Assembly (NCBI GenBank): GCA_001874305.1
Contig: MPCU01000004.1
Coordinates: 1 to 64,000 of the forward strand
DNA: 64,000 bases
DNA from: Bacteriovorax sp. MedPE-SWde
GTDB taxonomy: Bacteria > Bdellovibrionota > Bacteriovoracia > Bacteriovoracales > Bacteriovoracaceae
Direction: 5' to 3'
Positions 38,160 through 41,650 of this stretch are shown here, one piece after another (position 1 is the stretch's first letter; each line of letters opens with the position of its first letter). Both the position numbers and the translations under genes were made by a program. The notes beneath the pieces are model-generated. The model was given only the letters and a program-made list of their open reading frames with translations. It did no database searches and was not told the origin of the DNA.

Positions 38160-38507
38160 TTAATTATCACGTGATCTTCTTTCACGTCTTCTCTCTCTTC
38201 TATCTTCTCTAAACTCTTGTCGATCTTCTCTTTGCTCTAATCTATCTTCTTTACGATCAGAACGGTAATCTTGCCTTTCGGCCTTTTGATCCTGACGGTA
38301 CTCTTTCTTTGAACTATAGTCACCATCTTGCCAACTCTTGCGGTTTTCTTTTCTTTCTTTTCTATAGTTTTGTCTATCCTGACGCCTCTCTTGACGGTAC
38401 TCACGATTGTCCTCTCGAGCTTGACGATTTCTTCTCTCACCTCTACGTGCAAATACACTTGTTGCCGTTAGAGTTAAAACTATAATTATTAGAATTGGTT
38501 TGTTCAT
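38160..38507 (-). CDS. Exported protein of Arg/Glu/Asp/Gln repeats (charged helix)
   Basis: 115 residues. A signal peptide (MNKPILIIIVLTLTATSVFA) is followed by a body made almost only of Arg, Lys, Glu, Asp, Gln, Asn and Tyr, in recurring units such as RQDRQNYRKERKENRK and REDRQEFREDRRERR. The alternating charges predict a long single alpha-helix. No homology was recognised. The stop is 2 bp from that of the convergent DMT gene. A TAAGCGGAGGAATT ribosome site is seen on the minus strand. Confidence 0.7.
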   Translation of the reverse strand: MNKPILIIIVLTLTATSVFARRGERRNRQAREDNREYRQERRQDRQNYRKERKENRKSWQDGDYSSKKEYRQDQKAERQDYRSDRKEDRLEQREDRQEFREDRRERRRERRSRDN

Positions 38508-38652: not shown

Positions 38653-39654
38653 TCAAAGAGCAATTTTTATCAGCCTTTCTATAAGGTCATCATATGAGAT
38701 ACCTGCTTCTCTAGCAGATAAAGCAAATTCATCACCCATGGCCACATTAGGGTTTGGATTTGCCTCCAAGACAAATGGTGTACCATCTTCACTAACTCTT
38801 AGGTCGATTCTTGCATATCCGGATAGCTCTAAGGCCCTATAGGTCTTCTTAGCTGTTTCAATTATTTTCTTTTCCAAATCGTTCTCAAGAATAGCAGGCC
38901 TAGAATCAACACCTTTCCTATCCCTATAGTTCTTATCCCACTTGGCCTTTTCTGAGTAGAACTCCTTAGTAGGATTTTCAGACTTTTCAAATACTAGTTC
39001 CCAAACGGGAAGAACTTGTAGTCTCTTATTTCCAAGAACTCCCACATAGAACTCTCGTCCTTCTACAAACTCTTCAACTATTACTTCTCCACCATATTTT
39101 TCAATGAGGTATTCTATTCTTTCGTAAAGCTTTTCTTCAGTACTAACAACTGAGGCCGCAGATAGACCTAGAGAGGCCTCCTGATGAAGGCATTTAACTA
39201 TTAATGGGAAGCTTAATTTCTTCTCTAGTTTTTTTAAACGAGACTTTCCAAAAACTTGGAACTTTGGCGTTGGAATTCTATGATACGAAAGAAGTTTTTT
39301 GGCAATCGCCTTATCTCTAGCGATCATTAATCCGCGAGGGTTACTTCCAGTATATTTAGTTCTTAGTAACTCTAGATAACTTACAACATTTTGATCAAAG
39401 AGCACCTCTCCATCAAACTCTTCTAATAAGTTAAAGATGACATGGGGCTTAAACTCTTCTATGGCCTGTCTAATTACTTTTAGATCCGAGTAAACACCAA
39501 GAACTAATACTTCATGACCACTATTTTCAAGAGAATTTATGACGTTATATTCAGTAATCCAGGGAGAGAATTCAAGCTCTACACCTTTTTTCTTATGAGC
39601 ATCCTCAGGAGGGACAAGATCTTGGTGCATTAATACTAAAACTCTATACTTCAC
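38653..39654 (-). CDS. D-alanine-D-alanine ligase-like ATP-grasp enzyme
   Basis: 333 residues, cytoplasmic. ATP-grasp features: IARDKAIAKKLLSYHRIPTPKF, the ATP lysine and glycine loop in PLIVKCLHQEASLGLS, EEFVEGREFYVGVLG, and the metal-binding end FVLEANPNPNVAMGDEF. The overall plan is that of Ddl-type carboxylate-amine ligases, so it likely joins an amino acid or peptide to a carboxylate, but the substrate is unknown. A true Ddl is less likely because the context is a protease operon, not mur genes. Last gene of the operon, overlapping the previous gene by 4 bp. Confidence 0.85.
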   Translation of the reverse strand: MKYRVLVLMHQDLVPPEDAHKKKGVELEFSPWITEYNVINSLENSGHEVLVLGVYSDLKVIRQAIEEFKPHVIFNLLEEFDGEVLFDQNVVSYLELLRTKYTGSNPRGLMIARDKAIAKKLLSYHRIPTPKFQVFGKSRLKKLEKKLSFPLIVKCLHQEASLGLSAASVVSTEEKLYERIEYLIEKYGGEVIVEEFVEGREFYVGVLGNKRLQVLPVWELVFEKSENPTKEFYSEKAKWDKNYRDRKGVDSRPAILENDLEKKIIETAKKTYRALELSGYARIDLRVSEDGTPFVLEANPNPNVAMGDEFALSAREAGISYDDLIERLIKIAL

Positions 39655-40664
39655 ATGATTATCCTATGTTTTCCTTCCTTGAAAAACTTCTTTGCATGAG
39701 TCTCGACCAGGCCTTCAAGCCCTTCAAGTTTCTTCTTTTGACTTCCTCTCTTATGAATTTTGAGCCCTTTATTTCGCGCCAAATCTTCTAAGTCCGTGAG
39801 TGCCGATTCAATCTTATACTGATATTGTCTTGTTCTTGTTGCTACATTCTTCTTTAAAGTTTTTCTATTTTCTTTCAACTGTTCATAGAGCTCTTCAGAT
39901 TGTGAATAGTTCTTATGAGATAGAAAAGATCTTAAATGATAATGTGAGCTTGAACCCTTCAATCTTTGTACTTTATTATTATAGTAGCTTCTTAAAGAAA
40001 TATCCATCATTTCAAAGTGATCTACATTTTGATAGCAAATGACATTAGGTTTTTCATTCTTTAAAACCTTCATTCTTCTTTGGATATAGTTTAGCTTTTC
40101 TATTGCAGGCCATGTCTCATATCGTTTTCTCCAAGATGAATTAGGAGTAAGCCAAACAGCAAAGCTTTCTGCCCAATCTTCTTCTGGGTGTGCTTGGGCA
40201 TAAGAGTCTTCTAAATGTTGAACAAATTTCTTTGAATATTTCTTAGCAGTGTAGCTCTCAGGGTACTTCTGATCACAATCACCAAAAAGGACTCTTCTCT
40301 CATCACATTCCCTAAGAAAATAAGCATTATCTATTGCATGGCCACATTCATGCCTCATTAACTTCATAAACCAGTCGTTATTAGACCCTTCCGCATGGCC
40401 GATCATTTTCTTTTCTAATTCAATAAGTCTTGGATGCATAAGAAAGAATGGAAGAGCAAAAGCCGTTATTCCATCTGGGCAAAACCAATCATCACTGATC
40501 CAAACTTTAGGGCGAAACTTAATCTTCTTCTTTTCTAACTCTCGATGTAGTTCATCAAGACAGTTTGAAAATTGAGAGGTTTCAAAACTTATAGGTAGGT
40601 CACAAATTCTCATTCTTAAAAGTTGAGAGTCTGTTAAATTTGATAATTCATCAAAGTACTTCAC
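39651..40664 (-). CDS. Putative zinc metallopeptidase (HExxH)
   Basis: 337 residues with no signal peptide. The zinc motif is H105-E-C-G-H109 (MRHECGHAIDNAYF), with the probable third ligand E166 in EEDWAESFAVWL, the layout of a gluzincin-like family (resembles the putative zinc-binding metallopeptidase family). The C-terminal 150 residues are basic and helical (KNVATRTRQYQYKIES), perhaps for substrate binding. Its 4-bp overlaps at both ends with a trypsin-like protease gene and an ATP-grasp gene suggest coupled expression of the three. Confidence 0.78.
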   Translation of the reverse strand: MKYFDELSNLTDSQLLRMRICDLPISFETSQFSNCLDELHRELEKKKIKFRPKVWISDDWFCPDGITAFALPFFLMHPRLIELEKKMIGHAEGSNNDWFMKLMRHECGHAIDNAYFLRECDERRVLFGDCDQKYPESYTAKKYSKKFVQHLEDSYAQAHPEEDWAESFAVWLTPNSSWRKRYETWPAIEKLNYIQRRMKVLKNEKPNVICYQNVDHFEMMDISLRSYYNNKVQRLKGSSSHYHLRSFLSHKNYSQSEELYEQLKENRKTLKKNVATRTRQYQYKIESALTDLEDLARNKGLKIHKRGSQKKKLEGLEGLVETHAKKFFKEGKHRIIM

Positions 40665-41650
40665 TCAAGACATCCCTTGTTAATAATACACGAGATGATT
40701 TTCTTACTTTCAAAGTTTACTGAAGAGTTAGAAAGGTCTTCTTTTATTCTATAAAATGGAACCATATGAGAAGATTGTAATCTGAAAATTCCATGTAGCT
40801 TTTTATTAGCTAGGATTTTCTTAATCGTATCGTTTGTAAAACTTAAGATATAACTTCCAGTAGAGTTTGCTAATGCATAGAGCTTCTTTTCTTTTTTAAG
40901 AAATACTGGAGAGCCAGAATCCCCCGGAGAAGAGTCACACCCCATAGTTTCACCGTCTTTATCGGCCAAAAATATTTGACATAGATCTGAGTCTTCTTCT
41001 AAAAAGTTCTGTTCTTCATTTCTATTATATCCCCTACCAGCGGTAAGTAATGCTGTAGATTTCTGCATCTTCTTCCACTCTATATCAAGAGGAGCTTCAT
41101 CTATTACTGTATCCGATAGAATAAAAGCATAATCTAGCTCACTACCCGTTCTAATAATTTTTGAACAATTTATTTTCTCATCTCGAGTATTTGATATTTC
41201 TAATGTCGGGCACTCTTCCCCCCTAACGACATGCCTATTTGTAGCAATTAAGCTTTGCCCTTCATACTTACCAAGATAAACGCCCGTCGCTGACCCAACT
41301 CTTAATATATGATGATCTAATCCGCTATCAATAATTGAAGACATTTCTTTTCGATTCCAGTCGTCTCCGATTTGATACGACCTTCCCATGGATTGTTTAT
41401 ATTGATAAAGAAAAGACTCTAAGAAGTGCTCTCCAAAACTTGTATATTCAAAAGAGGCCAGCACAGCTTTTGTATAGTCATCTGGGCCACAAAAAAGAAG
41501 AGTTGTACTCATTGCATAGAGAATATCTTCCCTATCCATATCAGTCTGTGCAGCTTTTAACTCACTAATATCACTGTCAATACCACAACTATTGGCCGCC
41601 AAAGAGCTTAGAAACAAGCTTAAAAATGTTAATAATTTCAATATTTTCAC
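40661..41650 (-). CDS. Exported trypsin-like serine protease (S1 fold)
   Basis: 329 residues with an N-terminal hydrophobic signal (LLTFLSLFLSSLAANSC). The catalytic triad is H140 (IATNRHVV), D173 (LDYAFI) and S245 (SSPGDSGSPVF); cysteines around it (C147, C162, C224, C238) may form disulfides. About 100 residues of non-homologous sequence precede the protease core, possibly a propeptide or regulatory domain. The start is GTG, 7 bp after a TATACT box on this strand, with no ribosome site. First gene of the three-gene protease/metallopeptidase/ATP-grasp operon. Confidence 0.85.
   Translation of the reverse strand: MKILKLLTFLSLFLSSLAANSCGIDSDISELKAAQTDMDREDILYAMSTTLLFCGPDDYTKAVLASFEYTSFGEHFLESFLYQYKQSMGRSYQIGDDWNRKEMSSIIDSGLDHHILRVGSATGVYLGKYEGQSLIATNRHVVRGEECPTLEISNTRDEKINCSKIIRTGSELDYAFILSDTVIDEAPLDIEWKKMQKSTALLTAGRGYNRNEEQNFLEEDSDLCQIFLADKDGETMGCDSSPGDSGSPVFLKKEKKLYALANSTGSYILSFTNDTIKKILANKKLHGIFRLQSSHMVPFYRIKEDLSNSSVNFESKKIISCIINKGCLE

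Follow-up and report, generated by a model that had tools for sequence, protein, structure and literature searches.

Two adjacent genes of Bacteriovorax sp. MedPE-SWde, which encode a zinc metallopeptidase (MP) and a D-Ala-D-Ala-ligase-like ATP-grasp ligase (AG), are, to judge from their distribution, close to certain to form one functional module. Both lie in the window, i.e., the whole stretch of 64,000 nucleotides analysed here, directly downstream of the gene for a trypsin-like serine protease (Table 1). The MP-AG pair is widespread and accessory, and its near-obligate linkage across many bacterial groups points to two genes with one job. The current names of the two products, Ddl-like ligase and putative metallopeptidase, are misleading or empty. 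No report of the pairing was found in the literature searched, and an earlier mention is possible.

An earlier note on this DNA described three minus-strand genes with 4-base overlaps, and these are present in the window. The overlaps had been called ATGA-type; the length was right and the sequence was not, as the protease-MP and MP-AG junctions both read GTGA. The description of the protease as an exported S1-fold enzyme with H140, D173 and S245 was borne out: the three residues sit in NRHVV, LDYAF and GDSGSPV, the Trypsin_2 model (PF13365) scored 33.7 bits against a cut-off of 27.6, and the protein has a hydrophobic, signal-like N-terminal stretch, which MP and AG do not have. Similarly, no cell-wall gene cluster was found among the ORFs at 34-46 kb of the window, in agreement with the earlier note. 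Downstream of AG lies an ORF of 115 aa (38160-38507, minus strand) with a signal-like start, consisting nearly entirely of R/E/D/K/Q repeats.

Table 1. Positions in the window of the three genes and of the motifs discussed in the text.
Feature	Position	Strand	Remarks
AG, D-Ala-D-Ala-ligase-like ATP-grasp ligase	38653..39654	-	333 aa, GTG start; PF07478 Dala_Dala_lig_C, 125 bits
MP, zinc metallopeptidase, PF15887 Peptidase_Mx family	39651..40664	-	337 aa, GTG start
Exported trypsin-like serine protease, upstream neighbour, outside the conserved pair	40661..41650	-	Trypsin_2 PF13365
MP stop/AG start overlap, 4 bases	39651..39654	-	GTGA
MP zinc motif H105-E-C-G-H109	40338..40352	-	H105, E106, H109 invariant, 75 sequences
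MP motif Y155...E162, D163, E166	40167..40202	-	All four invariant, 75 sequences
MP C-terminal tail GKHRIIM	39654..39674	-	Form conserved in AG-paired MPs
AG magnesium/ATP motif E297-A-N299-P-N-P	38749..38766	-	E297, N299, N301, P302 invariant, 55 sequences
AG acidic pair D308-E309, in place of the serine that binds the acceptor in Ddl	38728..38733	-	

AG was found directly downstream of MP in 17/17 relatives that have MP, and the 4-base overlap between the two genes recurs in 10 of the 16 relatives measured. The genes flanking the pair differ between most of the 17 relatives and therefore the linkage is not a matter of general synteny. Among 192 genomes of the phylum (Bdellovibrionota), MP is present in 67, the main AG clade in 68 and both in 66, with AG directly downstream on the same strand for 64 of the 68 MP genes. 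Two of the four exceptions are contig breaks (MP is cut by the contig end in G055, and AG starts at base 5 of its contig in G051); in the other two genomes (G044 and G181) both genes are present and unlinked. The Fisher test of co-occurrence over the 192 genomes gave p = 5e-48, a value made too extreme by the relatedness of the genomes. The linkage of the pair is more than chance; that of the trio as a unit is not.

Apart from the window, Bacteriovorax sp. DB6_IX is the only one of the 17 relatives in which the trypsin-like protease adjoins the pair. The remaining 16, four of which belong to the same genus, do not have it there, and the homologues of the protease in 29 other genomes of the phylum sample are weak and lie away from the pair. 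One system comprising all three genes, to which the 4-base overlap with the protease in the window and the same gene order in that single close relative might point, is thus largely refuted by distribution and hardly credible. Moreover, the signal-like N-terminus is found on the protease only, so that this enzyme would act in a different compartment from MP and AG. The refuting condition set in the earlier note, homologues of the three genes usually lying apart, thus applies to the protease but not to MP and AG, which stay together, and the trio as a unit was rejected. The match of the protease to LmuA (PADLOC, E 6e-7) overlaps the trypsin-like domain and is uninformative. A defence system was also considered and rejected for the pair, since no PADLOC model was matched by MP or AG.

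The pair is not confined to the Bdellovibrionota. A scan of a genome collection with AG as the query gave, as its best 80 loci, members of this phylum and of about ten other named groups, including Acidobacteria, Nitrospira and other Nitrospirae, Planctomycetes, Alpha- and Gammaproteobacteria, Gemmatimonadetes, Methylomirabilis and Binatia, as well as single MAGs of Acidimicrobiia and Cyanobacteria (group names as in the records). MP is directly upstream of AG in 71 of these 80 loci. As for the remaining nine, the contig is too short in two (L092 and L115) and, L080 aside, four of the other six carry MP at another place in the genome. MP and AG are correlated in their similarity matrices (r = 0.77, 49 loci). 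The idea of a function specific to predators is contradicted by this distribution and was rejected, as the carriers include Acidobacteria, Nitrospira, Planctomycetes, Bradyrhizobium and others. The accessory nature of the pair can be seen in the Alphaproteobacteria, where 3 of 190 genomes have both genes, adjacent, and 187 have neither. In the Planctomycetia (119 genomes), six have both genes, one has AG alone, and in four there is a second-clade MP but no AG.

These second-clade planctomycete MPs (L130-L133) stand alone in genomes without AG and, lacking the conserved tail, end in TGRLTG or TGRLTC. Several divergent relatives of AG (L137-L141, 254-325 bits) keep the acidic acceptor pair, and a full-length MP was not found in their genomes. 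Second-clade planctomycete MPs and some divergent AGs thus occur without a partner, and each can act alone in places. No third gene was found to be conserved with the pair across groups. In five loci of Acidobacteria (L052, L055-L058), an amidase-like gene, identified by eye, is directly upstream of MP, a placement seen only there.

The AG product was correctly recognized in the earlier note as an ATP-grasp enzyme resembling D-Ala-D-Ala ligase (Table 1). Its structure model (pLDDT 94.6) has the same fold as DdlB of P. aeruginosa over the whole length (Z 32.9, 2.4 A, 291 residues), and it shares with Ddl the residues for ATP and magnesium as well as the catalytic arginine and lysines; K115, K154, R282, D284, E297 and N299 are invariant in 55 sequences. 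However, the enzyme differs from Ddl at the acceptor site. In Ddl, a serine binds the carboxylate of the acceptor. This serine, part of the motif NT-x-PG-M-T-x-x-S (S281 in DdlB), is replaced in AG by the pair D308-E309. The two positions hold an acid in 53 and 54 of the 55 rows, respectively, whereas the canonical Ddl of this genome has S-M. E35 of AG is a candidate counterpart of DdlB E15. Furthermore, AG has NPNP in place of the NT-x-PG of Ddl and a tryptophan in place of Y216. The exchange of serine for two acids speaks against a free D-amino acid as the acceptor, which would probably lack the usual carboxylate contact.

AG also scored below the NCBIfam cut-offs for Ddl (148.4 vs 243 and 139.2 vs 245.65 bits), and the canonical Ddl of the genome is located on another contig (C2). 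Based on these scores, the canonical gene elsewhere and the acidic acceptor site, AG as a simple Ddl was rejected; the argument of the earlier note against a simple Ddl was supported, and its refuting condition, AG as the only Ddl of the genome, does not hold. A role in the cell wall could still take another form, in which AG would make a variant D-amino-acid dipeptide for peptidoglycan and MP would cut wall peptides in the cytoplasm during recycling. The Ddl fold of AG speaks for such a role, which we regard as improbable given that a canonical Ddl is present elsewhere, that acids stand in place of the acceptor serine and that the surroundings of the pair lack conserved wall genes. AG may serve as a warning against taking every gene with a Ddl fold for one of cell-wall synthesis.

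The MP product scored above the Pfam gathering cut-off for Peptidase_Mx (38.5 vs 27 bits). The earlier note named H105-E-C-G-H109 and E166 in it; these residues are present, and H105, E106, H109 and E166 are invariant in the 75 sequences, as is E162, which is the likelier third zinc ligand. In the site of lethal factor, the third zinc ligand comes seven residues past the active-site tyrosine and a second-shell glutamate follows four residues later. The pattern Y155-x6-E162-x3-E166 agrees with that motif, and by this comparison E162 would be the ligand and E166 would belong to the second shell. The structure model of MP (pLDDT 93.7) matched the catalytic domain of lethal factor moderately (Z 9.4, 5.2 A, 165 residues), the PPEPs with Z up to 7.6 and 4l7a with Z 6.2. 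All of these fold matches are limited to residues 1-208 at most; they are moderate and would indicate the fold and not the function. MP, which has no signal peptide, is a gluzincin whose fold is probably that of Peptidase_Mx, lethal factor and the PPEPs. It has in common with the Peptidase_Mx family, including the solved putative metallopeptidase 4l7a of Bacteroides, the HExxH motif and Y-x6-E-D-x2-E. Compared with this family, however, MP is without a lipoprotein signal and has an additional helical C-terminal half, a conserved C-terminal tail and AG as a partner.

The tail at the extreme C-terminus has the form G-[RKH]-H-[RK]-[VI]-x-[LM] and is conserved in AG-paired MPs. This conservation could be caused in part by the ribosome-binding site of AG. 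The MPs unlinked to AG make this doubtful as a full explanation, as the tail is complete in one of three such MPs and partial in two. The AG-less planctomycete clade ends differently.

Co-occurrence of MP and AG shows a shared process, not one common molecule; a shared substrate and the order of the two steps are what we infer beyond it. In the reading we prefer, held tentatively and at a little under an even chance, AG ligates something to a peptide-like acceptor and MP cuts the same molecule. By Ddl-like chemistry, AG would use ATP to turn a carboxylate into an acyl phosphate and would join it to an amine, so that an amino acid or a short peptide would be placed on a peptide-like acceptor and not on a free D-amino acid. 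MP would either trim this molecule before the ligation or remove the addition made by AG, as RimB does for RimK. Support for this reading comes from the near-obligate co-occurrence and adjacency, the intact catalytic residues, the acidic acceptor site of AG, the folds, the parallel with S58 peptidases given below and the precedent of RimK and RimB. Against it stand the MPs and AGs that occur without a partner, the moderate fold matches of MP and the lack of any conserved third gene that would hint at a substrate. The idea of a coupled ligase and peptidase, put forward in the earlier note with one enzyme making a bond and two cutting, thus survives for MP and AG and falls for the protease.

Previous work on Pseudomonas showed that RimK polyglutamylates ribosomal protein S6 and that RimB, a retropepsin-like protease, takes the glutamates off again and stimulates RimK; a RimK/RimB hybrid enzyme also exists (PMC11957791). 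RimK/RimB (RimABK), an ATP-grasp ligase coupled to a peptidase that undoes the ligation, therefore resembles what is proposed for AG and MP. The components, on the other hand, come from other families: MP is an HExxH gluzincin, in contrast to the retropepsin-like aspartic protease RimB, and AG is of the Ddl type, whereas RimK belongs to another ATP-grasp family. Hence the MP-AG pair is not a member of RimK/RimB, and plausibly it works in a like manner. If the job of the pair is indeed to make and cut a bond on a protein or peptide, bacteria would have a further ligase-peptidase modification system in addition to RimK/RimB.

Another reading is a graspetide-like maturation, with AG cross-linking a ribosomal peptide and MP removing the leader. 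Graspetide loci can contain zincin-type metallopeptidases (PMC8939145), which would fit with MP. However, graspetide (RiPP) clusters have a precursor gene near the ligase, and no small ORF (18-90 aa, within 1.5 kb) near AG was conserved beyond closely related loci. In addition, AG is of the Ddl type, and the RimK model remained just below its cut-off on AG (20.7 vs 21 bits, compared with 125 bits for the Ddl model). Such maturation is therefore very improbable, and the ribosomally made peptide system suggested in the earlier note is disfavoured likewise, by the same search for a precursor beside the genes.

A parallel to the MP-AG pair is present in the same phylum. In 29 of 36 loci, a sister Ddl-like ATP-grasp, in many cases a tandem protein of about 680 residues, adjoins a gene for a Peptidase_S58 (DmpA-type) enzyme (e.g., L143:2995-6145, L145:4569-7866, L142:3976-6107 and 26 others). 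As in the MP-AG pair, a Ddl-like ligase lies beside a peptidase gene of the same strand. However, the peptidase fold is unrelated, and the sister ligases have N[AP]LP and, where AG has its acidic pair, serine or alanine; it is serine, as in the genome's Ddl, in the C-terminal domains of the S58-paired ATP-grasps. Two unrelated peptidase families beside one branch of ligases would be expected if ligase and peptidase share a bond type or a molecule.

The S58 peptidases (DmpA) are a family acting on small peptides, and their place beside the sister ligases could also be read in favour of a small-molecule pathway, in which the product of AG would be a dipeptide-like metabolite or a natural product, and MP would either break it down or trim a peptide precursor. 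The free-standing nature and the patchy distribution of the pair are consistent with this as well. However, the pair is not accompanied by any conserved transporter, tailoring enzyme or precursor gene, and the enzymes of the lethal-factor/PPEP fold known to date act as endopeptidases, with proteins or peptides as substrates. We consider the small-molecule pathway rather unlikely, though a serious candidate.

Returning to a peptide-like acceptor that is made and cut, a more specific form would be a reversible cycle, in which AG adds an amino acid to a basic-tailed C-terminus, possibly the G-x-H-R-[VI]-x-[LM] tail of MP itself, and MP removes it. A basic tail would suit the acidic acceptor site of AG. 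We think this form doubtful and would be surprised if it proved right; if true, it would be a widespread, undescribed modification cycle, and the S58 pairs would be a second ligase-peptidase cycle in the same phylum.

No plasmid matched the AG of the window and no phage record matched its MP. Relatives of the MP catalytic domain are present, without AG, on IMG/VR viral contigs (L151-L158, L162, L164-L171 and L173). In L164-L168, these relatives carry a HAD-like segment at the N-terminus and are preceded by two large genes, terminase- and portal-like by eye only. A divergent MP-AG pair (L150:3989-6108; 309 and 313 bits) lies on one further contig that is listed as viral but may be a misassigned piece of a chromosome.
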